This document shows, piece by piece, positions 1,976 through 30,952 of a stretch of DNA of 37,653 nt (positions within the stretch are counted from its first letter, which is position 1; each line of letters begins with the position of its first letter). The notes below the pieces were generated by a model that searched no databases, was not told the origin of the DNA, and was given only the letters and a program-made list of their open reading frames with translations. The stretch comes from Gemmatimonadales bacterium (GTDB lineage: Bacteria > Gemmatimonadota > Gemmatimonadetes > Gemmatimonadales > GWC2-71-9): contig DASUJH010000058.1 of the NCBI GenBank assembly GCA_036279355.1, forward strand, positions 1 through 37,653, in the 5' to 3' direction. Made by a program: the position numbers and the translations under genes.

Positions 1976-4842
<2,867 letters not shown>

Positions 4843-10877: not shown

Positions 10878-10902
10878 GGAGATGGCGGCGCCGGGGGCGC
10901 GC

Positions 10903-12175: not shown

Positions 12176-12706
12176 CTATGCGTTGGCCCCGCCAACCCCC
12201 TTCTGGTCTTCCGCATCGGCGCCGAAGACGAGCCCCTGATCGGCGCGAGCGTTGACCAGCGCGGCCTGCAGCTCCCGGATTTCCTCGTCGCTTCGGCCCG
12301 CCGCGCGAAGCCGGCGATAGCTCTGGATGCTCCGGGCCGCCATCTTGAGCGTGCCGAGCGCGAGCGTGGCGCAGCGTTCGCGAAAGCCGACCACCTCGCG
12401 GCCGAGCTGGTCGATCATCCGGTCGTAGGAGTAGTCGAGCACCTCGTCGAGCGTCGGATGCGTGCGGTTCACCCGCTCCGCGAGGATCGACGCCGCCGCC
12501 TGGCTGATGGTGCACCCCTCGCCCTCGAAGCGCACCGCCTCGATCCGGTCCGACCCCGGTTCGGTGCGTACGTGCATCGTCACCAGATCGCCGCAGCCGG
12601 GGTTGCCGCCGGGCATCGTGACGTCCGCCCCCTCCAGCGCGCCCTTGTGGCGCGGCCGCTTGTAGTGGTCGACCAGGACCTGGATCTGGGTCTCGCGATC
12701 GATCAC
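12176..12706 (-). CDS. SufU-type iron-sulfur cluster assembly protein
   Basis: A 176-residue member of the SufU/IscU family, which takes sulfur from a donor and helps assemble or relay Fe-S clusters. The three conserved ligand regions are present: GGNPGCGD with the first Cys and Asp, [16 protein letters not shown] with the second Cys, and [12 protein letters not shown] with the third. The GTG at 12706 overlaps the stop of the upstream sulfurtransferase (GTGA), so I chose it over a longer frame reaching 12751. A tail of about 35 residues after the family core is Ala/Gly-rich. No sufBCD or sufS lies in the window, so the nearby sulfurtransferase may be a sulfur source; this is inference. Confidence 0.9.
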
Positions 12707-13596
12707 GGCTTCTCGATCGGCGCCCGCACGGCATTGCCCCACTCCGTCCACGAGCCGTCGTAGTTTCGCACGCGATCAAAGCCGAGGAGGTACGTGAGCG
12801 CGAACCAGGTATGCGATGACCGCTCTCCGATCCGGCAGTACACGACCGTGTCGGCGTCGCGCTTGAGACCGTTCTCCTGCTCGTAGATCGTGCGCAGCTC
12901 GCTCGCCGGGCGAAACGTGTGGGTCTCGGGGCTCACCGCGCGCCCCCACGGGATGCTCCGCGCCCCCGGAATGTGGCCGCCGCGGAGCGTGCCCTCGTTC
13001 GGATAGTCGGGCATGTGGAGCCGCTCGCCGCGGTACTCCTCGGGGCTCCGCACGTCCACCATCGGCCGCCCCGCGCGCATGTGCGCCAACACCTCCTCGC
13101 GGAAGGCGCGGAGCCCGGCGTCGTTCCGCTCGCCCACGGTGATGTCGCCCGGCGGGTATGTCGGCGCGTCCGTGGTGAGCGGGCGCCCCTCCTGGATCCA
13201 CCGGAGCCGCCCGCCGTCCATGAGCCGCAGGTTTTCGAGTCCAAAGAGGCGCAGCACCCAGAAGGTGTATGTCGCCCACCAGTTGTTCTTGTCACCGTAG
13301 AGCACGATCGTCGTGTCGCGGCTCACACCCTTGGACCGGAGCAGCGCCTGGAGGCGCTCACGGCCGACGTAATCCCGCTGGAGCGGGTCGTTGAGGTCCG
13401 CCACCCAATCGACCTTCACCGCGCCCGGGATGTGGCCGGTCTCGTACAGCAGTACGTCTTCATCGGACTCGATCAGGCGTACCTTCGGATCGGACAGATG
13501 CTCGGCCACCCACGCCGTCGAAACCAGCACCTCGGGGTGTGCATAGCCGCGCCGGTCGATGGGCATCACGTCGGGGACCGCTTGTTCCTGCGCCAT
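12703..13596 (-). CDS. Rhodanese-type sulfurtransferase (SseA-like)
   Basis: A 297-residue protein with two rhodanese domains. The first is inactive-looking (residues about 20-140, with [14 protein letters not shown] and [16 protein letters not shown]). The second carries [24 protein letters not shown] and the active-site loop [17 protein letters not shown], whose Cys would carry the persulfide. This loop type is the thiosulfate sulfurtransferase form rather than the CGSGVTA form of mercaptopyruvate enzymes. The ATG at 13596 has an excellent AAAGGAGG ribosome-binding site 5-7 bases upstream, the strongest in the window. The stop overlaps the start of the SufU-like gene, a pairing that recalls the neighbouring sseA and SufE-like genes of mycobacteria. 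Confidence 0.93.
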
Positions 13597-13691
13597 GGTC
13601 GCCTCCTTTCGTCGACCCAAATTGCGAGCAACATTATCGGATTGCAAGCGAGGCGGAGACGATTCGGACAGCCCGGCGCGCGCATGTGCCA

Positions 13692-13717
13692 AGGGGCGGC
13701 CCGATCGGACCGCCCCT
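13692..13717. terminator. Hairpin downstream of the small membrane protein gene (candidate terminator)
   Basis: AGGGGCGG (13692-13699) pairs perfectly with CCGCCCCT (13710-13717), and the space between holds the palindrome CCGATCGG. The hairpin is 27 bases beyond the stop of the 48-residue membrane protein gene on the minus strand and about 95 bases upstream of the sulfurtransferase start. Neither side has a proper T-run, so termination is likely but not certain. Confidence 0.45.
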
Positions 13718-17350: not shown

Positions 17351-18524
17351 GGCGTCTGCGACCGTGGCGCCCGCGACGCCGGCTGCCCGCGGAAGCGCCA
17401 CAGCAGCCGGCCGCCTCATCTCGCTCGACGTCTTCCGCGGCGCGACGGTCGCCGCCATGCTCCTGGTAAACGCGCCGGGCAGTTGGAGCGCCATCTACCC
17501 GCCGCTCCGCCACGCCGAGTGGAACGGATGGACGCCCACCGATCTCATCTTTCCGTTCTTCCTCTTCATCGTCGGGGTCACGACCCACCTCTCGCTCATG
17601 GCCCGACGCAAGCGCGGCGACGACGAGCGGGCTCTGGTGCGCCAGGTGCTGCGGCGCGGCGTGGTCATCATCGTGCTCGGGCTCCTCGTCTCGGCTTTTC
17701 CGTTCTTCCCGCGCGACTGGATCGCGCATCTCAGAATTCCGGGCGTCCTGCAGCGGATCGGCGTGGTGTATCTCTGCGCCGGGTTGATCGTCCTCCGCTC
17801 CCCGCCCCGCACCCAGCTTCTGATTGCCGGCGCAATCCTCGTGGGCTACTGGCTGTTGCTCGCGCTCGCCCCGGTCCCGGGCGTCGGACCTGCCGCGCTC
17901 GCGCCCCCCGACGCAACGCTCGCGGCATGGCTCGACCGCCTGCTGCTCGGCGGTCATCTCTGGCCCGAGACGCGGACCTGGGATCCGGAAGGAATCCTCG
18001 CGACCGTGCCCGCCGTGGCCACGGCACTCCTGGGCGCGGCTGCGGGGCGTCGGCTCACCCGGCCCGAGCCGCTCTCGGTGCGGCTCAATCAACTGTTCGG
18101 GGCGGGCGCAATTGCGACTGTGGGGGGGCTCGTCTGGAGTTGGGGCTTCCCGATCAACAAGAATCTCTGGACCAGCTCCTACGTCGTGTTCACCGCGGGC
18201 CTGGCGGCGATGTCGCTCGCGACATGCACGTGGCTCATCGAAGAGCGGAAGGCGGCGTGGTGGGTGCACCCGTTCGTCGTGTTCGGCGTGAACCCGATCA
18301 CGGCGTTCGTGGGCTCGGAGCTCGCGGCGCGGCTCATCTATACCGTGGTTCGCGTGCCTTACGGCGGCGCCAGCGTGCCGGTCGAGACCGCGGTGTTCCG
18401 GGCCGCGTTCGCGTCGTGGCTGCCCGCGCGCGCGGCGTCGCTCGCTTTCGCGATCGTGTTCGTGGCGTGCTGGTACGTGGTGCTTGCCGCGCTCTGGCGG
18501 CGGCGGATCATCCTGAAGGTGTGA
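17319..18524 (+). CDS. HGSNAT-like (DUF5009/NagX-type) membrane acyltransferase
   Basis: A 401-residue polytopic membrane protein related to heparan-alpha-glucosaminide N-acetyltransferase. It has the family opening RLISLDVFRGATVAAM, then LLVNAPGSW, the block LRHAEWNGWTPTDLIFPFFL with the conserved His region, and about ten hydrophobic segments. Family members move an acetyl group from cytoplasmic acetyl-CoA across the membrane to an amino sugar. The ATG at 17319 lies inside the deacetylase gene; a GTG at 17364, just after the deacetylase stop, is a good alternative because the first 30 residues are low-complexity Ala/Thr/Pro. Acting after a deacetylase, it could re-acylate the same glycan. 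The 3' end overlaps the convergent formyltransferase gene by 17 bases. Confidence 0.88.
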   Translation: MPRFHVTARAEASATVAPATPAARGSATAAGRLISLDVFRGATVAAMLLVNAPGSWSAIYPPLRHAEWNGWTPTDLIFPFFLFIVGVTTHLSLMARRKRGDDERALVRQVLRRGVVIIVLGLLVSAFPFFPRDWIAHLRIPGVLQRIGVVYLCAGLIVLRSPPRTQLLIAGAILVGYWLLLALAPVPGVGPAALAPPDATLAAWLDRLLLGGHLWPETRTWDPEGILATVPAVATALLGAAAGRRLTRPEPLSVRLNQLFGAGAIATVGGLVWSWGFPINKNLWTSSYVVFTAGLAAMSLATCTWLIEERKAAWWVHPFVVFGVNPITAFVGSELAARLIYTVVRVPYGGASVPVETAVFRAAFASWLPARAASLAFAIVFVACWYVVLAALWRRRIILKV

Positions 18525-19353
18525 GCGTGGAGCGCCCCGCACGGCGAGCCCCGACGCGGCGAGCCCGGACCCGCCGCCTGAGCTCGCGCTTGTCGCGCCC
18601 GGTCGGCCGCAGGAAAAAGCGGCCGCGCGCGGGGTCTTGAGCCCGAGCAGGCACGGGACCTTGGGTCAACCGCTCGACTGCCGTCACCAGCAGTCGAATG
18701 CCGGCCGGCGCAAGTTGCTCCCTCCAGTAGCGCGTGAGATATCGCATCGGATCCCCCGGCGGCATGAGGTCGAGCGGTAGCCGCTCCTGCAGGATGATGT
18801 CGCCTTGGTCGAGCCGCTCGTTCACCCAGTGCACGGTGAGCCCCACCTCGGGCGTGCCCTCGTACAGCTCCCAGAATGCGGGCGCCGAACCGCGGTATTC
18901 GGGCGCGTGGCCGAAGTGCAGGTTGATGGAACCGAGCCGGGGGAGCCTGAACAACGACGGGAGCAGCCGGGGCGTGGCTACGACGACGCCCAGATCCGGT
19001 GCAAGGGCGCGCACCCGCTCGAGCGTGCTCGCGGAATGGAAATCCGCGACGTGCTCGTACTCCACTCCCGGGCAACGCTGCGCGGCATATTCCGCCAGAC
19101 GCGCGGCGGGAGGCTCCCCGCGCAATGCCCGAAGGCCCCGCGCCGCCGCGCCGCGCAGCACGGCGCTCGCGCCGCCATAGCGCCACATACGGAGCGCCTT
19201 GCGGAGAGGTGGGCGCTTGCGAAGCGCCATCGGACCCGTGAGCGCCGCGACGCGACTCACGCCGGGCAGCCGGGCGATCTCGGCGGCCGCATCGAGCCCG
19301 ATGCGGTTCACGGTAAGCACCAGCACGCAGAACGGGGCGGTCGCCCCGGTCAT
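18508..19353 (-). CDS. Formyltransferase (formyl_trans_N family), likely sugar or amine N-formyltransferase
   Basis: A 281-residue protein with the N10-formyl-tetrahydrofolate-dependent transferase fold. GSINLHFGHAPEYRGSAP carries the catalytic Asn and His, and NERLDQGDIILQE the catalytic Asp, matching the Met-tRNA formyltransferase family. The C-terminal tRNA-binding domain of Fmt is not recognisable, and the last 40 residues are merely basic. As the last gene of an operon with a flippase and glycosyltransferase, a role in formylating an amino sugar or other amine of a surface glycan is more likely than initiator-tRNA formylation. The ATG at 19353 overlaps the flippase stop (ATGA). The frame stays open far upstream, but that part is a shadow of the flippase gene. 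Confidence 0.82.
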   Translation of the reverse strand: MTGATAPFCVLVLTVNRIGLDAAAEIARLPGVSRVAALTGPMALRKRPPLRKALRMWRYGGASAVLRGAAARGLRALRGEPPAARLAEYAAQRCPGVEYEHVADFHSASTLERVRALAPDLGVVVATPRLLPSLFRLPRLGSINLHFGHAPEYRGSAPAFWELYEGTPEVGLTVHWVNERLDQGDIILQERLPLDLMPPGDPMRYLTRYWREQLAPAGIRLLVTAVERLTQGPVPARAQDPARGRFFLRPTGRDKRELRRRVRARRVGARRAGRSTLTPSG

Positions 19354-20915
19354 ACGACGTCCCCTGCACCGGCGCGCGGCGCCGCGCGCGGCGCGGGCGC
19401 ATCGCGCAGCATCGCACCGCGTGCCATCCCACCCCGAATCATCGCCCGCCGCGCCGCCGCCGCGAGCCGCGGCACGAGCGGAACCAGCAGCACCAGATAC
19501 GCGGCGGCTGCGAGCGCGGTCGAGCTCACATCGGCGCCGGGCCAGACCCGCCGAACGGCGAGCACGCTCACCGCGCACCAGGCGAGCGGCAGCACCGCCC
19601 GGCAGGCCGTGGCACGCGCCGCCGCTGCGCCGGGCGATCCTTCGGCGGACTTGAGATTCACCACGAGCACAGCGCCGCCATACGCCGTCTGGCTGAGGAG
19701 CGCACCGGCCGCCACTGCCTCGAGACCCAGCCCGAGCCGGAGCGCGGTGAGCGACAGCACCAGGTTGAGCGCGGTGCCTGCTCCGGCGAACACCGGCAGA
19801 ACCCGCTGCCGCTCCGCCGCGACGAGGCCGACCGCGCCGAGGCTCGCGAGGCCTGCCGCGACGCCGCTGAAGATGAACAGCTCGCCCGCGGGGGCGGCGG
19901 GCGCGTAGCGCGGTGCCAGCAGCGCAAGTGCGGGGCGGAGCGCGAGCGCGCCGAGGCCCAGGATCGGCGGGAAGAGCTGAACGAAGGGAAGAATCGATCG
20001 CTCGACGTGCTCGCGCACCGCGCGCGCCGCGCCGGCCGTTTCCATCCGATGATAGACCTCGGGAAAGACCACCGTGCGAATCACCCAGCCCACGGCGGCC
20101 GCGAGCCCCGCCACCGCAACCGCGAATGCGTAGTATCCCAGCATGACCCGGCCGCCGAGTGTCACCACGGTCAGCCGATCCACGCTGGAGAGCAAGCGTG
20201 CCAGTCCGAGCGCAATGGCGAACGGAACCCCGACGCTGAGCAGCCTCCGCACGCTCGCTACGTCGAACGCGGGTCTGAGCGGTACCATGCCGGGCAGGAG
20301 GCCGAGGGAGAGGACATTGCCGATAACCAACCCGACCAGCGCGCCGTCGAGCCCCCACCGCACCGCCAACCCCAACGTGCAGACGAGTTGCAGCACAGCA
20401 TGCGCGAACTCGAGGCCCGCGTAGCGGCGCAGATTGGCCTGCACTCTGAGCGCGATGAGCCCGTACACGTAGAGCTGCTCGGCGAGCACGGCGGCCGCGA
20501 ACGCGCGGAGCTCGAACGCGCGCTCGGGCTCTGTGACGGCAAACGACGCCGCGAGCGCCACCGCCGCGATCGCGCCGAACACCACCAGCACGTAGCCCAG
20601 CGCCGCGCGCGCGGGACCGTCTCGAGCGGCCCCCGTCTCGAAGCGGCCGCGCGCCCGCGTCAACTCGAGCTCGAGGCCGCGGTGGATGCCGAGCGCCGCG
20701 AAGCCGGCGTAGCCGAGGCCAAGGCGAATGAGGGCCCAACCGCCGAATGCGGCCGGCCCGAGCAGGGTGGCGAGCACGAGGCCGCGGATCGCAAGTACGC
20801 CGGCGATCGCCGCCCGGGCCGCGCCGTAAAGTGCGATGCGGCGGAACGTGCTCCGCGGCGGTGCGATGCCACGCGGGGGACCGGCCTGCTGCGTCGGGGC
20901 GGCCGCCGCGCTCAT
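19350..20915 (-). CDS. Wzx-like oligosaccharide flippase (MOP superfamily)
   Basis: A 521-residue polytopic membrane protein with about 12-14 hydrophobic segments in the pattern of polysaccharide biosynthesis flippases. The N-terminal FRRIALYGAARAAIAGVLAIRGLVLATLLGP helix pair and the central LARLLSSVDRLTVVTLGG and AAVGWVIRTVVFPEVYHRM segments fit the family. It would turn over a lipid-linked oligosaccharide to the periplasmic side. No Wzy polymerase or initiating phosphoglycosyl transferase is in the window. The ATG at 20915 is the last of three ATGs in a tandem 14-base repeat (see the repeat entry). The stop overlaps the start of the formyltransferase gene. Confidence 0.85.
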   Translation of the reverse strand: MSAAAAPTQQAGPPRGIAPPRSTFRRIALYGAARAAIAGVLAIRGLVLATLLGPAAFGGWALIRLGLGYAGFAALGIHRGLELELTRARGRFETGAARDGPARAALGYVLVVFGAIAAVALAASFAVTEPERAFELRAFAAAVLAEQLYVYGLIALRVQANLRRYAGLEFAHAVLQLVCTLGLAVRWGLDGALVGLVIGNVLSLGLLPGMVPLRPAFDVASVRRLLSVGVPFAIALGLARLLSSVDRLTVVTLGGRVMLGYYAFAVAVAGLAAAVGWVIRTVVFPEVYHRMETAGAARAVREHVERSILPFVQLFPPILGLGALALRPALALLAPRYAPAAPAGELFIFSGVAAGLASLGAVGLVAAERQRVLPVFAGAGTALNLVLSLTALRLGLGLEAVAAGALLSQTAYGGAVLVVNLKSAEGSPGAAAARATACRAVLPLAWCAVSVLAVRRVWPGADVSSTALAAAAYLVLLVPLVPRLAAAARRAMIRGGMARGAMLRDAPAPRAAPRAGAGDVV

Positions 20916-20951
20916 GCGTCGCCGCTCATGCGTCGCCGCTCATGCGTCGCC
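20910..20951 (-). repeat. Three 14-bp tandem repeats forming a stop-start relay
   Basis: The unit GCTCATGCGTCGCC (plus strand) occurs three times in perfect tandem at 20910-20923, 20924-20937 and 20938-20951. On the coding minus strand each copy contains ATGA. The GNAT gene stops at 20940-20942, overlapping an ATG at 20943 that reads MSGDA then stops at 20926. This overlaps an ATG at 20929 that reads MSGDA then stops at 20912, overlapping the flippase ATG at 20915. Two five-codon mini-ORFs thus bridge the two genes. No Shine-Dalgarno sequence is in the unit, so re-initiation is the probable mode. Confidence 0.9.
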
Positions 20952-21683
20952 GCTCGCGCATCTCGCCTCATCGGGAAGGGCCGTTGCCTGCACGACCGGT
21001 CCAGCAAGCGTGAGCTCGAGTGGCCGCTCCCACGCACGGTACCGCATGCTCCGGAGCCAGAGCAGCTTGAGGGACCGCAACTCGCCCAGGATGCGCGGCG
21101 CGCGCCCGCTGGATTTCTCCGCGGTGCGAAAGGAAGCCGCGTTGTGCACCGCGATCACGCGCCAGGCAAGCCGGTATCCCTGGTCGCGCGCCCACTGAAG
21201 TCGCGCCCGCGCGAGTGCCGTGCCGATCCCTCGGCACCGCTCGGCAGGCGGCGTGTAGAGCCCCCAGAGATAGGCGGCATCGCTCGGGAGGGGGAGCGGA
21301 AACGTTTCGATGTCGCGCTCCATCCGCTCCGAGCACCAGGCGTAACCCACCGGCGCGGCGCCGCGCCAGGCGACGAGCAAGGTGCGGCCGCGCGCGCTCG
21401 CCATCGCCATGATCGTCCGCGTCCGCAGGCTCGCGAGCGGCGCCATCCGGGCCCAGTCGGGCCCGGAGAACTGCCTGATCTCGATGCCGGCCGGGGGCGG
21501 TGCATCGGTGGACCAGGCAAGCTCCTGCTCCAGCACGAGCGAGCGACTCCAGCGCACGAGGCGATAGGCAGTCCGCTGCGCCAGCTCCTCGCAAACGCCT
21601 CCAAATCGCTCCCGCCGCCACGCATTTGCCGCGTCGCCGGGAAAGGTGCGCGCGTCGTGCAGATACTTGCGGATGCGGTTCAT
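20940..21683 (-). CDS. GNAT-family acetyltransferase
   Basis: A 247-residue protein whose middle part has the GNAT fold: VAWRGAAPVGYAWCSERMERD, the beta-4 strand AYLWGLYTPPAERCRGIGTALARA with the acetyl-CoA pyrophosphate loop (RCRGIGTAL, a Q/RxxGxG/A variant), and WRVIAVHNAASFRTAEK near the end. The first 80 residues form an extension starting MNRIRKYLHDA and the last 50 a basic region. The acceptor is unknown. In this operon it may acylate an amino sugar or amino acid unit of a surface glycan. The ATG at 21683 overlaps the upstream stop (ATGA), and its own stop leads into the 14-bp relay before the flippase gene. Confidence 0.8.
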   Translation of the reverse strand: MNRIRKYLHDARTFPGDAANAWRRERFGGVCEELAQRTAYRLVRWSRSLVLEQELAWSTDAPPPAGIEIRQFSGPDWARMAPLASLRTRTIMAMASARGRTLLVAWRGAAPVGYAWCSERMERDIETFPLPLPSDAAYLWGLYTPPAERCRGIGTALARARLQWARDQGYRLAWRVIAVHNAASFRTAEKSSGRAPRILGELRSLKLLWLRSMRYRAWERPLELTLAGPVVQATALPDEARCASGDA

Positions 21684-22768
21684 TCGCGCCGGCCTTCCTC
21701 GCCGCCAAGCGGCGCAAGCCCCTGATCGGTTTCGTGCAGCAGCCGCGAATGCGCGAACAGCTGCTCGAGTTTTGCCCTCCCGGCGCGCATGCGGATCGCG
21801 ACCAGCGGCACCAACGGATCAAGGGCCGGTGCGAATCCCCACGTCCGCTTCGACCGCGCTACTCCGTCGTTGAGGAACGGCACCGTACGCCCGAGGTCGA
21901 TCCGTGTGTGGCCCTGCGCCCGCGCCCATGCGAACGAGAGCGCCTGCAGGGCCGATTCGGCGCCCTCCCGAAGCAGCCGAACATCCCCGCCCGCCAGCCC
22001 CCCGACCGGGCACCAGATTCCGTCCGCGCATGGCACCACGCACATCCCCGCTATGCGCCGCCCGTCGCGCCGAGCGAAATGGATCGCTCCGCGGGCCGCG
22101 AGCGCGCGCCGGAGATGCGCGGAGGGGACCCATGCATCGGCGCCGAATCGGCTGCGGGCCGAAGGGACGACCATGCCGGCAAAGAACTCCTCCCAATCGG
22201 ACGGCGCCGTGGCGATCTCGAGCCGGTAATCGTACCGTGCGACCTTGCGCAGGTTGGCTCGAAGACTGTCCGATGGGTCCGGTGGCGGTACGGTGGCGGT
22301 CGTGCCGACCCAGCGCACCGCCTCAGGCACCGTGATCCAGCCGGCCCGCCGGAAGGCGGGCGCAGCCCAGCGATGCACGTGTGCCATGGTCATGTCGGCG
22401 TCGAGCCGCGCCAAGGCGGCGGGGCTCCAGAGCGGCGCGCGCGCCGAAACGCCGGAGTTCGCACGCGCGGACGGTTCCGCTCCGAGCGCACCGAGCAGCG
22501 CCTCGAATCGCCCGGCGCGCCCGGCGCACGCGACCGACAGTTCGGCACCGTCGAGCATCGCGACATGGCGGCTGACCGTCCCGACGAGCGAAAACGGCAA
22601 GGCCAGCGTTCGATGCGCCGCGGCCCAGCGCCCCGGGCGCCGCGAGGTGTATGTCGGCACCACGAATCGCCGCTCCACGTCGGCCGCCAGGCGCGCGGGC
22701 GCGTGGCGCACGCCGCCACCGACGCCGGCCCGCTGGCCGCGCATTCCCACGCGCTCGCTAACGGCCAT
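21680..22768 (-). CDS. FemAB/BioF2-like acyltransferase
   Basis: A 362-residue protein with a double-GNAT, FemAB-like fold. The C-terminal block IDLGRTVPFLNDGVARSKRT followed by WGF closely matches the end of the BioF2-like/FemAB group associated with exopolysaccharide loci, and SLRANLRKVARYDYRLEIA in the middle resembles the start of the second GNAT domain (S.R.N.RKA motif). FemAB relatives transfer aminoacyl or acyl groups onto amino groups of cell-wall precursors or glycans. I chose the ATG at 22768, which overlaps the ATP-grasp gene by 11 bases; the frame is open to 23023 but the extra part has no family features. The stop overlaps the GNAT start. Confidence 0.78.
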   Translation of the reverse strand: MAVSERVGMRGQRAGVGGGVRHAPARLAADVERRFVVPTYTSRRPGRWAAAHRTLALPFSLVGTVSRHVAMLDGAELSVACAGRAGRFEALLGALGAEPSARANSGVSARAPLWSPAALARLDADMTMAHVHRWAAPAFRRAGWITVPEAVRWVGTTATVPPPDPSDSLRANLRKVARYDYRLEIATAPSDWEEFFAGMVVPSARSRFGADAWVPSAHLRRALAARGAIHFARRDGRRIAGMCVVPCADGIWCPVGGLAGGDVRLLREGAESALQALSFAWARAQGHTRIDLGRTVPFLNDGVARSKRTWGFAPALDPLVPLVAIRMRAGRAKLEQLFAHSRLLHETDQGLAPLGGEEGRRE

Positions 22769-24170
22769 CCGAATCCCGGCCTTGGCAGGCCCCGGCCGCC
22801 AGCGCGGCGAAGTCGCGCGCCGCCTGCTCGCGCGTCCGCGCGAAGACGGCCACACCCACGACGCCGTTGCCAACCGCCGCGGCGTGGAACGGCACCACGC
22901 CGGTGCCGGTGCGCGGATCAAACAACCGGCCGCCCAGCAGCGTCCGAAGCTCTGTAAACGACCGCGCTGGCGTCGCGATCCGGCCGGCGGCGAATGCCGC
23001 CGGCTCGGGCCGGCCGAACGCACGCTGCCGCATAGTGAGCCGCTCCATCAGCGCCAGCGGATAGCTGGCGGAGTTGTAGCGTGGGTTGATCTCGGCCAGC
23101 ACGGCGCGGCGGCGCCCGCCGAAATCCGCATACTCGACGAAGTCGAAGCCGATCACGCCCGTGAGTCCCTGGTCCGCCAGCCGCTGCGAGAGGCACAGCG
23201 CGTGCTCGACCAGCCGCGGCGCCGTCTCGGCGCACGATGGGTAAACGTTGCCGAAGTGGGCACCAGCCTGGTCCAGCAGTTGATCGGTGATGCCGATGCA
23301 GGTGACGCACCGGTCCACCGGATCGATGAACGTCTGTACGTTGGGAGAGACGGCAACGTCGAGCAGCTCATCGACCAGGTACACCTGGTTGTCTTCGCGC
23401 CGGAGGATATCGGCAACGGTTTTCTCGACCTCAGCCTCGGCGGCGCCGCTCACCCAGAGACTCGTCCCGCTCGATCCCACCGACCCGCGCACAATCGCCC
23501 GACCGGTGCGCCGCGCGAACCGGCGGATCGCCGCGGCGAGCGCCGTCGCGTCCGCGCGCCGGTCGCCGGCACCCTGTGCGAGCTCGATCACGGTGCCCGG
23601 CGCCACCGGCACGCCGAGCTCGATCGCGCTGGCCCGAATCAGCTGCTTCCGGTCGGCGCGGTAGGTCGCGCTCGGATCGCCCGCGACCGTGCGCGCCGCG
23701 TGGCCCAATCCCTCGGCGAGCGCCTGGTCGGCAGCCTCCGCGTGCAACGCGTCCACCCAGACGCCTACGCGCGGGCCGAGCAGCTCGCCCAGGCGGCGGA
23801 GTGCCGGTGCGTCGGCCCGCGCGCGGACCGCCAGGGCGCTTTCAGCAAAGGAGCGCCCGGCAGGCGGCGCCGGCACGACGATGCGCTCGCGCGGCGGCCC
23901 CAGACCCCATTGCGCCAGCAGGTCGAGGAACGCGGCATCGGGCGGCTGCGCCAGCAAGACCACATCGTCGGCTCCCGCGACCGCGAGCGCCCGCTCCGCC
24001 GCGTAGGCCTGCAGGCCCGGCACCGCCGCGCAGACCGCCTCGATCTGCGGCATCGCGGTGACGCAGTGCGCGAACACGATGGGTCCTCCCAGCCGCGCGT
24101 GGCAGGCGCCGAGCGCCGGCGCGCCGAGCGCCGGCGCGGATTGCACATCGGGCCGCAGCTCGGCACCCAT
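22758..24170 (-). CDS. ATP-grasp superfamily ligase
   Basis: A 470-residue ATP-grasp protein. The N-terminal pre-ATP-grasp part (about residues 1-150) includes PIVFAHCVTAMPQ and Rossmann-like GADDVVLLAQPPD. The ATP-grasp core follows with DRKQLIRASAIELGVPVAPG, the Gly-rich loop RGSVGSSGTSLWV, and the metal-binding end GVIGFDFVEY and LAEINPRYNSASYPLAL (Glu and Asn ligands). These enzymes make acyl phosphates and join them to amines or thiols. The arrangement recalls PGM1/pheganomycin-type peptide ligases, but I cannot name a substrate. A perfect 15-bp duplication near the start encodes an APALG repeat. It follows the PaaK-like gene by 6 bases and overlaps the FemAB-like gene. Confidence 0.82.
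   Translation of the reverse strand: MGAELRPDVQSAPALGAPALGACHARLGGPIVFAHCVTAMPQIEAVCAAVPGLQAYAAERALAVAGADDVVLLAQPPDAAFLDLLAQWGLGPPRERIVVPAPPAGRSFAESALAVRARADAPALRRLGELLGPRVGVWVDALHAEAADQALAEGLGHAARTVAGDPSATYRADRKQLIRASAIELGVPVAPGTVIELAQGAGDRRADATALAAAIRRFARRTGRAIVRGSVGSSGTSLWVSGAAEAEVEKTVADILRREDNQVYLVDELLDVAVSPNVQTFIDPVDRCVTCIGITDQLLDQAGAHFGNVYPSCAETAPRLVEHALCLSQRLADQGLTGVIGFDFVEYADFGGRRRAVLAEINPRYNSASYPLALMERLTMRQRAFGRPEPAAFAAGRIATPARSFTELRTLLGGRLFDPRTGTGVVPFHAAAVGNGVVGVAVFARTREQAARDFAALAAGACQGRDSDGR
24106..24135. repeat. 15-bp perfect tandem duplication in the ATP-grasp gene
   Basis: GCGCCGAGCGCCGGC occurs twice in a row (24106-24120 and 24121-24135), adding five residues (APALG twice) to the low-complexity N-terminus of the ATP-grasp protein. 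The frame is kept. Recent slippage is the simplest explanation. Confidence 0.85.
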
Positions 24171-24176
24171 CGCGGC

Positions 24177-25523
24177 TCAGGCTCGCTCGGGCGCGGACAT
24201 CGCCACGCCGGGCGCCGCGCCGTCGGCCGCCTCGCGCCGGATCGCGCGAAACTTTCCGTTCGGCCCCGGGGCGATTTGGTCGACCACCTCGACGCCGAGC
24301 TCCACATCGGGGCCGAGCACGGCTCTCGTCCGGTCCTCCGCCGCGCGCAGCGCACAGCCGTCCCAACCGGGCGCCAGCACCAGCCGGATGACCACGCGGT
24401 CGCCGCGCTCCTGCACGAATTCATATTGCCGCACCGGCAACCCGTCGTGGTACAGCATCGCGACGAACAGCTCGTACGGGTGCAGCACCCGTCCCCCGGG
24501 CAGCGTGAAAAAGTCCATGGTGCGCCCCTGGATTTCGCCGATGGTCGACCACGGCGCCCCACAGGTGCAAACCGCTGGGCCGCGGGTCGCGAGATCACCG
24601 AGCCGGTAGCGGATGAGCGGCATCGCGTAACGGTGCAGTGCCGTGACGACCACCTCGCCGGTCTCGCCCTCCTCGGCCGGACGTCCGTCCTTCAGCACCT
24701 CGAGCACGATGCTGTCGTCGGGGATGTGCTTTGCGCCCGTGGCTGCGCATTGCCAGCCGAGCAGGCCAAATTCGTGGCTCCCGTACATGTCGAAGGCGGG
24801 CGCCGCGAACGCCGACTCGATTGAATGCCGCATCGCCGGCGTGAGCACCTCGGCGCCCACCAGCACGAGCCGGGGCCGGACGGCGCGGCCGCCGTTGTCG
24901 AGCAGGTGTGCCGCGGCCCGCGCGATCGTGCCGGGGTAGCCGCTCACGACGTCGGGCGCGCACGCGCGAAGCTGCTCGGCCAGGACCTCCGGCGGGGTGA
25001 ACACGTCGAGCCGCACCCTGCGATACCGGCCGAGGGCGCGCAGGGTGCGGCCGATCGTCTTGTGGTCGCGCCCGTGCACCTCGTGCGTGAGGCCGATGCT
25101 CGCCGTCACATCGCGCGCGCGCACGCCAACGCTCCGGAGGGCCCGGAGCCGGAACAGGTGCTGGAGACGGATCTCGAGCCAGGTGCGATACAACGTGATC
25201 CGCTGGCCCGATGTCCCGCTCGTGATTTGGGGGATGAGCCGGTCGGGCGAGTAGCCGCGCGCGACGACTTCAGCGGGTGCAGCGCGCGCCAGGTCGGGTT
25301 TGTTCGTAATCGGGATTCGGGCGAGATCGGCGACGCCGCGAATCTGCTCGGGGCGCACCCCGTACCGATCGAACAGGGCCCGGTAATGCGGCACCCGCGC
25401 ATAGGCATGAGCGATCACGCGGCGGAGCCGGTCGGCCTGCCAGGCCTCCACCGCGCTCCGCTTGGCGCGCCCGTGCCGGGAGAGCGCGGCGGCGACTTGG
25501 GCCGTGCGCCCGATATCCATCAT
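24177..25523 (-). CDS. PaaK/CapK-like adenylate-forming ligase
   Basis: A 448-residue ANL-superfamily enzyme related to phenylacetate-CoA ligase and capsule-locus CapK proteins. It has the ATP-binding loop TSGTSG (residues 101-106), YGSHEFG (247-253), RYRLGD (305-310), a CTCG metal-site fragment (319-322) and, near residue 425, GPNGKFR with the A10 Lys needed for adenylation. It should activate a carboxylic acid as an acyl-adenylate and pass it to CoA or another acceptor. The ATG at 25523 overlaps the upstream stop (ATGA); the longer open frame upstream is a shadow of the FemAB-like gene. It shares the operon with a second, divergent PaaK-like gene whose A10 Lys seems lost. Confidence 0.9.
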   Translation of the reverse strand: MMDIGRTAQVAAALSRHGRAKRSAVEAWQADRLRRVIAHAYARVPHYRALFDRYGVRPEQIRGVADLARIPITNKPDLARAAPAEVVARGYSPDRLIPQITSGTSGQRITLYRTWLEIRLQHLFRLRALRSVGVRARDVTASIGLTHEVHGRDHKTIGRTLRALGRYRRVRLDVFTPPEVLAEQLRACAPDVVSGYPGTIARAAAHLLDNGGRAVRPRLVLVGAEVLTPAMRHSIESAFAAPAFDMYGSHEFGLLGWQCAATGAKHIPDDSIVLEVLKDGRPAEEGETGEVVVTALHRYAMPLIRYRLGDLATRGPAVCTCGAPWSTIGEIQGRTMDFFTLPGGRVLHPYELFVAMLYHDGLPVRQYEFVQERGDRVVIRLVLAPGWDGCALRAAEDRTRAVLGPDVELGVEVVDQIAPGPNGKFRAIRREAADGAAPGVAMSAPERA

Positions 25524-26707
25524 CGCCCGCTCCCCCGCCCGCGCCGCCCGAAGCCGGCCAGGCGCTTCCGCTCCTTGGACGCGGTGCGCGCCGCCACCAC
25601 GCGCCCGAGCGCCGCGAGCAGAGCATGGCTCGTCGCCGTCGATCCCCGCACCAGCGTGACTCGGGGGCGGAGCTGCGCGCCGCGGAGCAGCTTGGGCACC
25701 AGCGCCGTCGGACCCAGATCGATCTGCCCGATGCCGCGGCCGCAGGCGATGCGCACCGGCTCGTAGATCAGATCGTTGTAGTACGCGGGACCACCTCGGT
25801 ACTTCGGCAGGAGCGCCGTGAACGTGCCGTCCAGCACGCCCCCGGCCGCCAGGTTCACGCTCATGCCGACGAGCTGGTCGCCGCGCCAGGTGAGCTGAGC
25901 CCAGATGCCCGGATCGGGATCCGCGGCGAGCCGGTCGAAGAACGCCCGGCCCGCGCGCGGCTCGATGCCGTTCCGCTCTCGATATGCCGAGCGAAGCAGC
26001 GCGTCCATGGCGCCGGTGTGCCCGCGAAAATCCTCCACCACGTCGAGGCGAAGGCCAGCGGTGGCCATCGCCTCGCGCTCGGCGCGCACGGTGCGCCGCA
26101 CCGCCTTGCTGCGACTCGCGACATAGCCGTCGAACGACGTCCACGTGACGGCGAGCCGCGCCGCCGCCCCGCCGTAGAGCGCTGCGTAGCCCCGGCGCCG
26201 CGCGACTTCGATCAGGCGCGTGTCGCCCGCGTCGACGAACGGCCAGACCACCGCCCTGGCACCATCGCGCCGGGCCCGTTCCTCGAGCGCCGCGAACGCA
26301 TCGTCAATGGTCGCGACCGGCAGCGCCGCGACTTCACCGAGCGGCGCCGAAGCGCGTGCGAACGGCGCCATTACGCAGAGCGCCGGATTGAGGCGGAGAC
26401 CGAGCCGGGCCGCCGCGGCGGCGAAGGGGCCGAGCCAGAGGTCGTGCAGGTTGCCGTCGCCGCCGTCGGCGACCAGATACGCCGGCACGATGGCCGCGAG
26501 TCCCGCCGCGCCCACGAGCGTCACGTGCCGCGCGCGCCACCCACTCAGCTCAGCGGCCACGAACCAGCGATGCTGATGAAAGCCGCGGCGCGCGAGGCGA
26601 TTCCATTCGGCCGCCGCGACGTCGGAGGCACCGTCGAGCAGCTTGACGCGCGACACGCCGGGCGGCGCGTGAGCGCTTTCGGCCGCGAGCAGCGCGCTTT
26701 CGATCAT
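25520..26707 (-). CDS. FemAB-like peptidoglycan/glycan acyltransferase-type protein
   Basis: A 395-residue protein of the FemAB/double-GNAT type. Landmarks are the N-terminal AAAEWNRLARRGFHQHRWFV (acceptor entry), the central DGYVASRSKAVRRTVRAERE with its Arg-rich strand-helix, and the second GNAT part with GTFTALLPKYRGGPAYYNDL and ACGRGIGQIDLGP, similar to the pfam04339/BioF2-like proteins. The tail is strongly basic (KERKRLAGFGRRGRGSGR), which suggests membrane or nucleic-acid contact. It likely transfers an acyl or aminoacyl group within the pathway of this operon. The ATG at 26707 overlaps the BKACE stop, and its own stop overlaps the next PaaK-like gene. Confidence 0.75.
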   Translation of the reverse strand: MIESALLAAESAHAPPGVSRVKLLDGASDVAAAEWNRLARRGFHQHRWFVAAELSGWRARHVTLVGAAGLAAIVPAYLVADGGDGNLHDLWLGPFAAAAARLGLRLNPALCVMAPFARASAPLGEVAALPVATIDDAFAALEERARRDGARAVVWPFVDAGDTRLIEVARRRGYAALYGGAAARLAVTWTSFDGYVASRSKAVRRTVRAEREAMATAGLRLDVVEDFRGHTGAMDALLRSAYRERNGIEPRAGRAFFDRLAADPDPGIWAQLTWRGDQLVGMSVNLAAGGVLDGTFTALLPKYRGGPAYYNDLIYEPVRIACGRGIGQIDLGPTALVPKLLRGAQLRPRVTLVRGSTATSHALLAALGRVVAARTASKERKRLAGFGRRGRGSGR

Positions 26708-27675
26708 GCGCCCGCCCCGGCGCCGGTGGCCGCGCCGACGGACCGCGTGCCCGCGGACGGTCCGAGCCCCAACATCGCGCGCGCACGCGCCGGGTTCGCG
26801 AGCGGACGTCCGAAGATTTCGCTCAACTGCTTCACCCGCGCCACCAGCGCAGTGTTGGTCGCGAGCTCCGACCGGTCGAACCCGTAGTAGATATTGTCCT
26901 CGAGCCCCACGCGGCAGTGCCCGCCCATGGCAATCGCGAGCGTGTTCATCGGGAGCTGGAAGAGGCCGATGCCTGCGCCCGACCAGAGCGAGTCGGGCGG
27001 CAGGTCCACCAGCATCGCGGAGAGATGGCGCGCCGTCGCCGGCGCCGAGTAGCGCGAGCCGAGCAGCAGGTTGAAGTAGAACGGCGGTGCGGCAAGGCCC
27101 TTGGTGATGAGCAGGTTCGCCGCGTTGATCATGCCGAAATCGAAGCACTCGAGCTCGGGCTTTACGCCGCGCTCCGCCATCCGCTCGGCCAGGCGGACGA
27201 CCATTTCGGGGCTGTTCTGGCTGGTCCCGGTCGGGAAGTCAAGCGAGGTGAGCGTGAGACTCGCGAGGTCGGCCCGCGCGCGGCCGGAAAGGTCCAGCAC
27301 CTCGCTCCGCCGCTCGAACTCGGGAAAATTCCGCCCGCTGCAGCTCACGCAGATGATCGCCTCGGGCACGTGCGCGCGGATGCCCAGGATCATCGTCTCG
27401 TACAACTCGGCCCGATAGCTCGGCGTGCCGTCGCGCTCGCGGGCGTGCAGGTGGACGATGCTTGCGCCGAGCTCGAGCGCGCGGCACGCATCGTCGATCA
27501 CCGCGGCGGGACTGATCGGCACGTGCGGCGTCATCGCCCTGGTGGGCACCATGCCGGTCGGACAGAAATTGATTATCAGCTCGGGGTACGGCGTGTACGG
27601 ATGCGGCAGCCGTGGGGCGGCGCCCTTGCCCCGGGCGCGGGGCCCCGGCGTGCTCGGGGGAATGCGGGCGATCAT
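26704..27675 (-). CDS. Beta-keto acid cleavage enzyme (BKACE/DUF849 family)
   Basis: A 323-residue TIM-barrel protein of the BKACE family, founded on the lysine-fermentation enzyme Kce. The family condenses a beta-keto acid with acetyl-CoA to give acetoacetate and a new acyl-CoA. Visible features are the metal-binding HLH in SIVHLHARERDG (residues 75-77), the partner Glu in GGHCRVGLEDNIYYG (Glu259), VPISPAAVIDDACRALELGA near residue 52 and ELECFDFGM near 174. The substrate cannot be read from the sequence. Its place between two PaaK-like ligases and FemAB-like proteins in a glycan-type operon is unusual, since most BKACEs sit in catabolic loci. The ATG at 27675 overlaps the upstream stop (ATGA). 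Confidence 0.92.
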   Translation of the reverse strand: MIARIPPSTPGPRARGKGAAPRLPHPYTPYPELIINFCPTGMVPTRAMTPHVPISPAAVIDDACRALELGASIVHLHARERDGTPSYRAELYETMILGIRAHVPEAIICVSCSGRNFPEFERRSEVLDLSGRARADLASLTLTSLDFPTGTSQNSPEMVVRLAERMAERGVKPELECFDFGMINAANLLITKGLAAPPFYFNLLLGSRYSAPATARHLSAMLVDLPPDSLWSGAGIGLFQLPMNTLAIAMGGHCRVGLEDNIYYGFDRSELATNTALVARVKQLSEIFGRPLANPARARAMLGLGPSAGTRSVGAATGAGAGA

Positions 27676-28871
27676 GCGTCGCTCCGATCGGATGACGAAG
27701 TCGGTGCGGATCCGGACAGTGGGGCGGGCCCGTCGGCGAGCCGGTCCACCGCGCGGACGCCGTGGTCCGCCCGCGCGGGGTCGGGTTGGCGCGCAGGGGT
27801 CGCACGCATCCGGGGATGCCGGCCGACCCGCCGGCTCGCCCGATACCGGACGAGGCCCTCGACGCGCTCCATCGCGGCCGTGAGTCCGTTCGCCGCGACT
27901 CGGCGACCGTCCAGCTCGCGGGCGTCCGCCTCCCGCCCGCTCACCAGCTCGAGCAGCGGCAGCGGGGACCCGCATGCGCACTGCCCGGGCTGGAGCACGC
28001 CGCGGTCGCCGGTGGCATAGCGGAGGAGCGGCATCGCACGATTCACCAGCACCGACACCAGGATCTCGCCCTCCTCGCCGGTGCTCGCCACGCGGCCGTC
28101 GGGCCGCACGATCTCCACGTGAAGTACGTCGGCGTTCACGTGCCGGCCGCCCGCAAGGCACTCCCAGGCGATTTCCTTCGTCTCCGCGCTACCGTAGACG
28201 TCGAGCACCGGCGCGCCGTACGCCGCGGCGACCTCGGCGCGGGTTGATGCGTGTAGCGGCTCGCCGCTCGCGAACACCGCACGGACCGAAAGCATTCGCC
28301 CCGTCCCGGAGAGCGCGCGCCCGGCCGCGAGCAATGCGGACGGAGGTCCGTAGACCGCCGCCGGCCGATGCGCGGCCAGCTTCTCCGCCATCCGCTCCAC
28401 CGGCTGCATGACACTGATCCGGCGGAAGACGCCCAATCGCTCCATCGCGGAGCGGCCTTCCGCGGCCGGCGGAATCGCGTCGAGCACCGCGATGCGATCA
28501 TGTGGCGATACCCCGCACGCCCCGCGCGCGCGCAGCTTGACGCGGTACCTGAGGAGCGACCACGCGCGGGGATCGAAGTACATTCGAAACGGTTCGGCGG
28601 TCGAGCCCGATGAAAGCGAGGATGCCCACCAGGGGCGGATCCAGCCGTCGCGCACCGCGCCGGTGCCGGCGAGCCGGAGCTCGCGCGCGGACACCGGTGG
28701 AAGCTCGGCGAGCGCCGCGAAGACGTCGCGCTCGCGAAGCGGGCGCCCGATGCCGGCGCCGCCGAGCCGCGCGGCCCAGAAGTGGGTGCGACCGGCCCAG
28801 CCGAGGAGCGTGAGGAGGCGCCGCCGCGCAAGCGCGGCGCACTGATCGGCAGAAGCCGGCAATGGCATCAT
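27672..28871 (-). CDS. PaaK/CapK-like adenylate-forming protein with altered C-terminus
   Basis: A 399-residue ANL-superfamily protein, a divergent paralogue of the one at 24177-25523. The N-terminal domain keeps SSLSSGSTAEP (ATP loop, residues 84-94), LDVYGSAETKEIAWEC, PLLRYATGD and a CACG fragment. The C-terminal domain begins normally (VAANGLTAAMERVEGLVRYR), but its end reads DGPAPLSGSAPTSSS where relatives have SGK followed by Arg and Phe/Val residues, so the A10 Lys is missing. The neighbouring frame right there reads IRTDFVIRSERR, which suits the family end, so a small deletion may have shifted the frame. The ATG at 28871 overlaps the GT4 stop. Half-reaction chemistry only, loss of activity, or a sequencing error are all possible. 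Confidence 0.82.
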   Translation of the reverse strand: MMPLPASADQCAALARRRLLTLLGWAGRTHFWAARLGGAGIGRPLRERDVFAALAELPPVSARELRLAGTGAVRDGWIRPWWASSLSSGSTAEPFRMYFDPRAWSLLRYRVKLRARGACGVSPHDRIAVLDAIPPAAEGRSAMERLGVFRRISVMQPVERMAEKLAAHRPAAVYGPPSALLAAGRALSGTGRMLSVRAVFASGEPLHASTRAEVAAAYGAPVLDVYGSAETKEIAWECLAGGRHVNADVLHVEIVRPDGRVASTGEEGEILVSVLVNRAMPLLRYATGDRGVLQPGQCACGSPLPLLELVSGREADARELDGRRVAANGLTAAMERVEGLVRYRASRRVGRHPRMRATPARQPDPARADHGVRAVDRLADGPAPLSGSAPTSSSDRSDA

Positions 28872-30172
28872 CGCTGGGTGACGAGCGGGCCGGCCGCGGG
28901 CGGGCCGTCCACCGCAGCGAGATTGTGAACGGCGGGCTCGCTCCCAGACGAGCGCTCTGCCTTCGTGACCCGCCTCGCGGCGGCGTACACGGCGAGGTAC
29001 TTCTCCGCCACCGCGGCCCACGAGAAGTGCGACACCGCGCGGGCACGATTGCGCGTCGAGATCGCAGCGCGAAGCGCCGGCTGCTCGCCGAGGCGGCGGA
29101 TGGCGGCGGCCAGCGCACCGGGATCGCGAGGCGGCACGAGAAAGCCGTGCTCGCCCTCGTGCACGACCTCGGGGATCCCGCCCACCGCCGTGCCGACGAC
29201 CGGCAGCCCCGCCGCCATGGCCTCAGCGAAGACGTTGCCGAACGCTTCCTCGCGCGACGGAAGCGTGAACAGATCGGCATCGCGCAGCCGCTCGCCTACC
29301 GCGGCCCGCCCCACCGCGCCGGTGAACCGCACCATATCACCCAGGCCGAGCCGGCCCGCAAGGTCGCGGAGCGCCGGCTCCGCCGGCCCGCTTCCTACGA
29401 TTTCCAGCCGGTAGCGGCCGTGCTCCAGCCGGGCCACGGCGAGCAGCAGATCGTCCAGACCCTTGCGCTCGACCAGCCGCGCGACCGCGATGCACCGGAT
29501 CGGGCTGCCCGCGCAAGCGCCGGCAGCGGCGGCGGCGGCGGCGGCGGGCCGGAAGCAATCGATGTCAACGCCGTTCGGGATCACCGTGTAGCGGAGCCAC
29601 GGATCGGTGCGGAGCGCGAGCCGACCCAGGCTCTCGCACACCGCCACGACGCGGTCGGCGCGGCGCCAGATCGCACGCGTTACCGGGCGGAGGAGACGAT
29701 GGGCGCGCTGCAGGCCGCGGTTGGACGGGTCGTACCCCGGCACGTCCGAGCCCCGCAGTGACACGATCGTGGCCTCCCCGCCGCGAAAGAGCGGCAGGAG
29801 CATTCCCGTCGGCAGCGAGAAGAAGAAGTGCGCGACATCGTAGGTCACGCCGCGCCGCAGCCGCCGCACGCACGGCAGCGCCGCCGCGAGGTAGCTCGCG
29901 GCATCCAACATGGTGGCCTCGTGCACGGCGGTGCGCCGGCTGCGCACCCGATGCACGGTGAGGCCGCGGCCCTCTGCCACGACGGGCGGGATCGAGCGAT
30001 CGCCGGGGTGCGCGGTGACCACGTCGACCCGGATGCCGCGGCCAGCGAGCGCCGCCGCGAGGGCTGCGGTGGCGACCCCAGCACCGCCGCCCACCGGGGG
30101 ATACTCGTAGTTGAGCACCAGCACGCTGCGGACGTTCGCCTGCGTCGGCCTGGTGGACACGCGTGCATCCAT
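28868..30172 (-). CDS. GT4-family glycosyltransferase, first gene of the ten-gene operon
   Basis: A 434-residue GT-B glycosyltransferase. It opens SVLVLNYEYPPVGGGAGVAT, has LRGSDVPGYDPSNRG in the middle, IPNGVDIDCFRP at the domain join, RLVERKGLDDLLLAVARL in the donor domain, the EX7E motif EEAFGNVFAEAM and GTAVGGIPEVV. It probably adds a sugar to a lipid-linked acceptor. A run of eight or more Ala (GCC-type microsatellite, plus strand about 29520-29550) lies between the domains. I used the ATG at 30172; a GTG at 30208 extends it by 12 residues. The stop overlaps the PaaK-like gene start. About 180 bases separate it from the regulator gene, and the operon promoter should lie there, though I see no convincing -35/-10 pair. 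Confidence 0.92.
   Translation of the reverse strand: MDARVSTRPTQANVRSVLVLNYEYPPVGGGAGVATAALAAALAGRGIRVDVVTAHPGDRSIPPVVAEGRGLTVHRVRSRRTAVHEATMLDAASYLAAALPCVRRLRRGVTYDVAHFFFSLPTGMLLPLFRGGEATIVSLRGSDVPGYDPSNRGLQRAHRLLRPVTRAIWRRADRVVAVCESLGRLALRTDPWLRYTVIPNGVDIDCFRPAAAAAAAAGACAGSPIRCIAVARLVERKGLDDLLLAVARLEHGRYRLEIVGSGPAEPALRDLAGRLGLGDMVRFTGAVGRAAVGERLRDADLFTLPSREEAFGNVFAEAMAAGLPVVGTAVGGIPEVVHEGEHGFLVPPRDPGALAAAIRRLGEQPALRAAISTRNRARAVSHFSWAAVAEKYLAVYAAARRVTKAERSSGSEPAVHNLAAVDGPPAAGPLVTQR
29520..29550. repeat. GGC trinucleotide run in the GT4 gene
   Basis: A nearly pure GGC repeat, about nine units on the plus strand, encodes a poly-alanine linker between the two domains of the glycosyltransferase. 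It is a likely site of length variation by slippage in threes, which would not break the frame. Confidence 0.85.
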
Positions 30173-30351: not shown

Positions 30352-30864
30352 CTACGACGGAGACGCGCGCCGGGCGATGCGTCGCCGGACCGGGCGCCGG
30401 CGCCACTCCGCCAGCGCACCGGCCAGAGCGGCAATCATGAGGGTGTATGCGGCATCGATGTCGCGGAACCGCGCATCGACCACCGTGCTCGCCCGACGGG
30501 GGCGCGCGGGCACGGCGCGAATGAGGCCGCTGAAACGTCGCATGCGGTCGAGCCGTAGCTCCATGGTGCGCGCCGGCAGGTCCGCCGGAACCTGGTAATA
30601 GATGCGCCTATCGGCCGGCCGCCGCACCCGCTCCACGATGCCCCGCCGCTCCAGCAGCCGGCTCTCCGTGCTGACGCTCGCCTTGCTGGCCTGCAGCGCG
30701 CGCGCGAGCTGGTCGAGCGAGCGCGGCGCCGGACTCAGCAGAAGGCAGCCGAAGAGCCGGCCGGCGGTGCGCGAGAATCCCTCGTCTTCGAAGAAGAGGG
30801 CCACACGCTCGACGTAGTCGGCGGCGCCGGGAGCGAGAACCGATTCCGAGGGGGGCTTGGGCAG
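30352..30864 (-). CDS. GbsR/MarR-like winged-helix transcriptional regulator
   Basis: A small DNA-binding protein of about 150-170 residues. YVERVALFFEDEGFSRTAGRLFGCLLL followed by LDQLARALQASKASVSTESRLLERRGIVERV is the winged-helix core seen in GbsR-type and MarR-type regulators; the rest is helical and basic. It is divergent from the TolC-adaptor-RND operon and most likely represses it. The start is uncertain because no in-frame ATG exists. A CTG at 30864 has GGAG six bases upstream and gives 170 residues (used here). A GTG at 30804 gives 150 residues but cuts into the first helix. A GTG at 30951 would run across the AT-richer promoter region. The stop at 30352 is secure. Confidence 0.78.
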   Translation of the reverse strand: MPKPPSESVLAPGAADYVERVALFFEDEGFSRTAGRLFGCLLLSPAPRSLDQLARALQASKASVSTESRLLERRGIVERVRRPADRRIYYQVPADLPARTMELRLDRMRRFSGLIRAVPARPRRASTVVDARFRDIDAAYTLMIAALAGALAEWRRRPVRRRIARRASPS

Positions 30865-30887
30865 CGAGGGCTCCGGGAAAAACGCGG

Positions 30888-30929
30888 TTGCAAGATTAAC
30901 TTCGTTCAGTATGTTCAGGCAAGACTGAA
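30888..30929 (+). promoter_or_regulatory. Efflux operon promoter with TTCAG operator-like repeats
   Basis: TTGCAA (30888-30893) and TATGTT (30910-30915), 16 bases apart, form a plausible sigma-70-type promoter directed at the TolC gene (start 30953). Overlapping and following the -10 are direct repeats TTCAG (30905-30909, 30914-30918) and an inverted CTGAA (30925-30929), giving TTCAG-N6-CTGAA. The area is AT-rich compared with its surroundings. The divergent winged-helix regulator is the obvious candidate to bind here; that is inference from position. Confidence 0.5.
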
Positions 30930-30952
30930 TCTTCGTGGAGACGCGCCGCACG

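Follow-up and report, generated by a model that had tools for sequence, protein, structure and literature searches.

A mosaic ten-gene operon in a Gemmatimonadales bacterium that may build and export a decorated glycan or glycolipid

We analysed a stretch of 37,653 nucleotides from a Gemmatimonadales bacterium (contig DASUJH010000058.1 of assembly GCA_036279355.1, a draft genome of 3.25 Mb), here called the window, in which ten open reading frames (ORFs) lie head to tail on the minus strand between positions 18508 and 30172. Members of the Gemmatimonadota abound in soil, but few have been cultured and little is known of their surface chemistry and secondary metabolism. An earlier look at the window without database searches (the sequence-only reading) had proposed that these ORFs form a coupled operon for an undescribed glycan or lipid conjugate. 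The layout that it described agrees with ours, for which start codons were resolved, as do its ten family assignments, which were compared with Pfam and NCBIfam profile matches.

The first gene (28868..30172, minus strand, as are all those that follow) encodes a GT4 glycosyltransferase matching Glycos_transf_1/Glyco_transf_4, with the E-x7-E motif present. It is followed by PaaK1 (27672..28871), a PaaK-like adenylate-forming protein (AMP-binding/PaaK-like) whose C-terminal subdomain with the lysine motif is gone; a BKACE-family enzyme (26704..27675; PF05853, E value 1e-81); a FemAB_like transferase (25520..26707; PF04339); and PaaK2 (24177..25523), a second PaaK-like adenylate-forming ligase (AMP-binding/PaaK-like). 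Next come a PreATP-grasp/ATP-grasp ligase of the peptide-ligase kind (22758..24170; PF18604 and profile matches to Protein Data Bank [PDB] structures), a BioF2-like transferase (21680..22768; PF13480, Acetyltransf_6) with a Fem-like tandem GNAT fold according to a low-confidence model, and a GNAT N-acyltransferase (20940..21683; PF00583, Acetyltransf_1). The last two genes encode a Wzx-type flippase (19350..20915; Polysacc_synt_3, PF13440, above cut-off) with about 12 membrane-like segments, and a formyltransferase of the N10-formyltetrahydrofolate type (18508..19353; Formyl_trans_N) in which N144, H146 and D182 are present.

From the glycosyltransferase to the formyltransferase, the junctions measure -4, -4, -4, -4, +6, -11, -4, +24 and -4 bases, so that seven of the nine are overlaps (six of them ATGA and one of 11 bases) and two are gaps of 6 and 24 bases. 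Overlap is also found in 8 of the 11 other co-directional junctions of the window, for which the starts of the neighbours are mechanical ORF starts, and because overlaps are common in this compact genome they point to co-transcription and not to specialness. The 24-base gap between the GNAT and flippase genes is occupied by a perfect 14-base tandem repeat of 3.4 copies (20909..20955, minus strand), each with an ATGA, which yields two five-codon relay ORFs leading from the GNAT stop to the flippase start. At a homologous locus, L016, the same junction is a plain ATGA overlap, and the stop-start relay is therefore probably a repeat expansion. Gain or loss of repeat copies at 20909-20955 would alter the start-codon relay ahead of the flippase. 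Promoter and terminator scans gave signals no commoner than in shuffled sequence, and an Rfam search was without a match.

Most of the gene set is kept in a second locus, L085, which comes from the same Gemmatimonadales family but a different genus and where nine of the ten genes occur nearly in order beside the same flanking genes: GT4, PaaK1, BKACE (76% identical, identified by translation and tblastn), PaaK2, ATP-grasp, BioF2, FemAB, GNAT and formyltransferase, with FemAB moved behind BioF2 relative to the window. Its flanks are a GNAT gene, a short DUF983-like ORF and a DUF5916-like gene on one side (the two DUF names given by resemblance to neighbours, not family search) and rhodanese, PNPOx and DUF2378 genes on the other; the latter three also adjoin the window operon. 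Identity between the two loci is 76% for BKACE, 73% for the flanking rhodanese, 61% for GT4 and 40 to 53% for the ligases and transferases. Between the window BKACE and those of L017, L085 and L056, identity is 74 to 78%, and the window GT4 shares 55 to 62% identity with the gene that opens most homologous loci. As BKACE is as conserved between genera as the rhodanese flank, its reaction seems, to judge by sequence, to be fixed while the remaining genes diversify. Among 102 genomes of the family, ATP-grasp is carried by 8, PaaK1 (above 300 bits) by 5 and FemAB by just 4, always on the contig bearing the cluster, and both the FemAB and the PaaK1 carriers fall wholly within the ATP-grasp carriers. 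With the window left out, four of four PaaK1 carriers lie within the 7 ATP-grasp carriers of 101 genomes, a chance of about 1e-5 under a hypergeometric model that takes genomes as independent; as most carriers come from a single genus, the real improbability is less extreme.

The genes occupy one variable chromosomal site at which gene order is a mosaic and not fixed. The earlier suggestion of a conserved unit thus stands for the set, given the near-complete L085 and the nested carriers, and falls for the order. Among the other loci are L017 (GT4-PaaK1-BKACE-ATP-grasp-MurF-like-BioF2-FemAB), L016 (GT4-PaaK1-CarB-like ATP-grasp-PaaK2-ATP-grasp-GNAT-flippase), L086 (GT4-PaaK1-PaaK2-ATP-grasp), L014 (GT4-ATP-grasp-MurF-like), L056 (GT4-BKACE-formyltransferase), L103 (GNAT-flippase-formyltransferase) and L018 (GT4-ATP-grasp). 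L057 holds BKACE alone, L096 and L101 hold, of these genes, GT4 alone, and in L108 the site is empty, with 71 bases from the DUF5916-like gene to the rhodanese. No other gene recurs at the site as constantly as GT4. The rhodanese bounds L014, L018, L056, L057, L096, L101 and L103; in L016, L017 and L086 the contig stops short of the rhodanese side, and the site was inferred from the opposite flank or not assigned. In the window, the rhodanese-family sulfurtransferase (12703..13692, minus strand) is a conserved flank of the variable site, outside the pathway. Between it and the operon stand genes for M28, deacetylase and HGSNAT proteins, and the window has no DUF5916-like gene. The MurF-like ligases of these and related loci (L015:985-2238, L014:8274-9521, L017:7427-8710, L026:4515-5822) matched over the middle and C-terminal Mur domains only, and those of L014 and L015 have a cysteine-rich tail (CWRTECRRVKFCDACLLL in L015).

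The sequence-only reading counted two acid-activating enzymes, and here it overstated the case. The N-terminal part of PaaK1 is intact in the window, and the C-terminal catalytic-lysine motif (AKFR in most relatives), kept in all four relatives compared (L085, L086, L017 and L016), is lost at 27672-27830, which makes adenylation activity of this copy doubtful. A frameshift behind the PaaK1 end was considered and rejected, as the lost end lies in no other frame. Loss of this region, the expanded repeat at the GNAT/flippase junction and the one to three genes held by L056, L057, L018, L096 and L101 could be taken as signs of a decaying mosaic locus whose gene sets are remnants and whose window copy is partly inactive. 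We consider this very unlikely: all window genes except PaaK1 are open with their checked motifs intact, coupling is kept, and BKACE is strongly conserved between genera. In PaaK2, for which the nearest solved structures are phenylacetate-CoA ligases, the TSGTSGQ (P-loop), YGSHE, YRLGD and C-terminal GKFR motifs are all intact.

Degradative pathways are where the BKACE and PaaK families are best known. An operon for catabolism, with the two breaking down beta-keto or aromatic acids, is nevertheless hardly credible here, for such a route offers no place for GT4, FemAB, ATP-grasp, formyltransferase or flippase, and the operon is without a dehydrogenase, a thiolase or an importer. The window BKACE keeps the zinc ligands H75, H77 and E259 and the catalytic R255, and scores 235.8 bits against the curated NCBIfam Kce model, below the cut-off of 382. 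It has V43 at the position of Kce Glu14 (Ile in most relatives) and F178 at that of Kce Tyr145. The acidic residue at Kce position 14 is presumably tied to an amino substrate, and with Val in its place, aminohexanoate or another amino substrate is unlikely for the window enzyme. Phe in place of Tyr145 was rejected as a mark of BsfD-like chemistry, being present also in 3no5, 3chv and 3fa5, three BKACE-fold proteins of solved structure that are uncharacterised. BsfD, a BKACE-family enzyme of the antibiotic flavophos phosphonate cluster, is an acetyltransferase, and the fold can thus acetylate instead of cleave (PMC12871164); to call the window protein an acyl-CoA-making enzyme, as had been done, is too strong. 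Among BKACE genes elsewhere, that of L062 adjoins a flippase and a glycosyltransferase gene, and in L059, L060 and L061 a GNAT gene comes immediately after BKACE. The loci L059 and L060 hardly differ though their genomes are placed in different families, which may reflect a binning error or recent transfer. At L058:4490-8295, BKACE lies between two related proteins that carry a PP-loop-like FSGG[VI][DN]S motif, without a Pfam match, and a GNAT gene follows; a relative of these motif proteins is found in a Wzy-containing locus (L089:14407-15606).

The ATP-grasp protein is, by domain and residues, of the PreATP-grasp peptide-ligase kind: PF18604 is above cut-off, K175, FDFVEY and E-x-NPR-x-N are intact, and profile matches include the ATP-grasp peptide ligase 8ynd, the L-propargylglycine-L-glutamate ligase 8yi6 and PGM1 (3wvq). 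For BioF2, which the earlier reading grouped with acyl-transfer proteins, the best Foldseek matches of the structure model were FemX, then Sba18/Sbb17 and A-PGS/MprF (E values to 1.3e-7, with a mean predicted local distance difference test score [pLDDT] of 59.5 and a template modeling score of about 0.35). This low-confidence model weakly suggests aminoacyl-tRNA as the donor, with a resemblance to aminoacyl-tRNA-dependent Fem transferases. FemAB was without a PDB relative by sequence, and its structure model (mean pLDDT of 41.9) was too poor for a structure search.

These enzymes bear on the alternative that the product is a specialised metabolite in soluble form, namely a streptothricin-like pseudo-peptide that is glycosylated and N-acylated and leaves through a flippase-like protein. 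Such a product is favoured because amide-forming and acyl-transferring enzymes exceed glycosyltransferases by at least six to one. Dipeptide ligases of the PGM1 and BesA types are related to the ATP-grasp protein; BioF2, second to FemX, looks most like the Sba18/Sbb17 aminoacyl-tRNA-dependent peptide synthases that act on streptothrisamine; GNAT is weakly similar to AAC(6'); and a BKACE relative works in an antibiotic phosphonate cluster. A cyanobacterial ATP-grasp relative, moreover, adjoins an LCM-type methyltransferase with no glycan cluster visible around it. Against this, a Wzx-type flippase is present in the window, L016 and L103, a similar kit lies in a glycan cluster in Nitrospirota (below), and no pathway-specific resistance gene, carrier protein or nonribosomal peptide synthetase was seen. 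We regard a soluble metabolite as a serious possibility, if an unlikely one.

In one Nitrospirota genome (G416:C115; L120, L026 and L119), three PaaK-like, BioF2, MurF-like, AsnB, ATP-grasp and GNAT-like proteins are encoded in one cluster with a Polysacc_synt flippase, several glycosyltransferases, PhnW-like and phosphonopyruvate-decarboxylase-like proteins, a CDP-alcohol phosphotransferase and an HpnL/LPG_TM protein. Of all the contextual evidence, this setting speaks most strongly for a glycan or glycolipid as the product. Together with a same-family genome (G043) in which a PaaK and two BioF2 proteins lie in the Wzy-containing locus L089, it bears out the direction taken by the sequence-only reading. 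A search of the phylum Nitrospirota gave one further ATP-grasp, without the kit, and a scan of viral contigs with ATP-grasp gave no match. The first ATP-grasp profile was too divergent for the scan of the collection, and a closer sequence set gave ten loci. As an observation in its own right, L119:2560-8149 with L026 and L120 is a candidate phosphonate-bearing glycan cluster, with aminoethylphosphonate-type genes, the CDP-alcohol phosphotransferase and the three PaaK-like genes.

Among the window proteins scanned there was no initiating phosphoglycosyltransferase and no Wzy_C match to a Wzy polymerase. The absence of an initiating transferase noted earlier is correct locally; elsewhere, the genome encodes three PF02397 initiating transferases and three more flippases, as found by single-family searches, on which all genome-wide statements here rest. 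Polymer pathways therefore exist in this organism, and an operon without its own initiating enzyme might decorate, in trans, a polymer made by other loci and build no glycan of its own. This appears quite unlikely, given that the operon has its own GT4 and flippase and that no gene is more constant at the site than GT4.

We favor, at a probability of roughly one in two, a modular accessory cassette that builds its own small glycan or glycolipid, decorates it with acyl, aminoacyl and formyl groups and then exports it. This glycan or glycolipid reading is drawn from the variable site, the flippase and the Nitrospirota setting; surface-glycan loci show the same pattern of a single site whose cargo changes, here with other amide ligases taking a place and one relative holding none of the genes. 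The BKACE neighbours in L062 (flippase and glycosyltransferase) and in L059, L060 and L061 (GNAT) also speak for it. In Caulobacter, a cohesive holdfast needs the tandem GNAT protein HfsK, a proposed modifier of the holdfast polysaccharide (PMC5362036). Several findings weigh against such a cassette. The operon has only one glycosyltransferase and no initiating transferase, polymerase or sugar-nucleotide genes, the window PaaK1 is degenerate, and the near-complete sister operon L085 is without the flippase. In addition, ATP-grasp occurs elsewhere with PaaK2 only (L019, L020 and L027) or without the kit (L029, L030 and G671), and nearly all relatives are contigs of draft metagenome-assembled genomes.

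We infer each step of the route from family membership, motifs intact in all but PaaK1, synteny and the fixed variable site. Loading of the acyl, aminoacyl and formyl groups would need no carrier proteins. GT4 would first transfer a sugar, probably one with an amino or carboxyl group, to a membrane acceptor, lipid-linked or otherwise, that other loci supply. PaaK2, joined in relatives by PaaK1, would activate carboxylic acids, and BKACE might adjust a beta-keto acid to an acyl-CoA or an acetylated diketide. The ATP-grasp ligase would form the amide bond that joins on an amino acid or a dipeptide, which in relatives the MurF-like ligase could attach. FemAB, BioF2 and GNAT would then move aminoacyl or acyl groups onto amines, the formyltransferase would cap a leftover amine, and the flippase would carry the product across the inner membrane. 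A conserved yet mosaic operon that unites acid activation with carrier-free ligation of peptides and transfer of glycosyl groups points to a conjugate not yet described, and places a BKACE-family enzyme, mostly known from catabolism, in a biosynthetic setting. BKACE with PaaK1, ATP-grasp with PaaK2, and the MurF-like ligase can serve as anchors for finding the conjugate in other genomes.

The families and the kind of locus are known, and the combination is undescribed. The earlier statement that it could not be recognised is matched by our finding no pathway with this gene set in the literature searched, which is weak evidence, since subscription papers lay mostly outside the search. Nor did that literature yield a paper on the combination in connection with the XrtA/PEP-CTERM exopolysaccharide system. 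Wzx/Wzy capsule and exopolysaccharide loci with PaaK-like and FemAB/BioF2-like genes, such as L089, share the flippase family, PaaK and Fem/BioF2 genes and variable content; the operon differs in lacking an initiating transferase, polymerase and sugar-nucleotide genes, in having one glycosyltransferase and in adding ATP-grasp, BKACE and formyltransferase. With pheganomycin-type PGM1 and BesA-type ligases it has the PreATP-grasp domain and a profile match in common, although the likeness is distant and by profile only, and no bes-type or precursor-peptide setting was seen near the operon. The tandem GNAT fold and the structural matches of the low-confidence BioF2 model weakly suggest kinship with Fem- and streptothricin-type aminoacyl-tRNA-dependent transferases and with HfsK, which affects a surface polysaccharide (PMC5362036); the window FemAB profile matches no solved structure by sequence. 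Kce, other BKACEs and BsfD share with the window BKACE a whole-fold sequence match, the zinc ligands and the catalytic Arg, and BsfD also the Phe for Kce Tyr145; the window differs from Kce in the Val at Glu14 and from the flavophos setting of BsfD in holding no phosphonate genes. Murein and archaeal pseudomurein peptides are assembled by Mur ligases and ATP-grasp enzymes (PMC11915815), and in related loci a MurF-like ligase accompanies an ATP-grasp peptide ligase, much as MurF goes with Ddl. The window, however, has no MurF-like gene, and a wall polymer is unsupported. A tentative and rather unlikely extension is a stem-peptide-like assembly outside murein, in which an ATP-grasp ligase would form a short peptide, to be built onto a non-murein lipid-linked sugar by Fem-like transferases and, in relatives, by a MurF-like ligase. 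With acyl caps from PaaK and BKACE and a separate formyl cap, this would give Gemmatimonadota and Nitrospirota a diversifying surface conjugate.

Several other genes of the window were noted. About 180 bases upstream of the operon lies a MarR-fold regulator (30352..30842, start approximate, minus strand) that adjoins a divergent resistance-nodulation-division pump; regulator and TolC-HlyD-AcrB type efflux set together span 30352-36737. An LPG_synthase_TM protein gene overlaps a second GT4 gene at 9897-12216, possibly a separate glycolipid pair. The DUF2378 protein at 7206-7760 adjoins PNPOx, a pairing also seen near the site in L014 and L085. At 17-3006, genes for Ku, a LigD-type primase-polymerase and an ATP-dependent ligase stand in a row as separate genes and represent bacterial non-homologous end joining.

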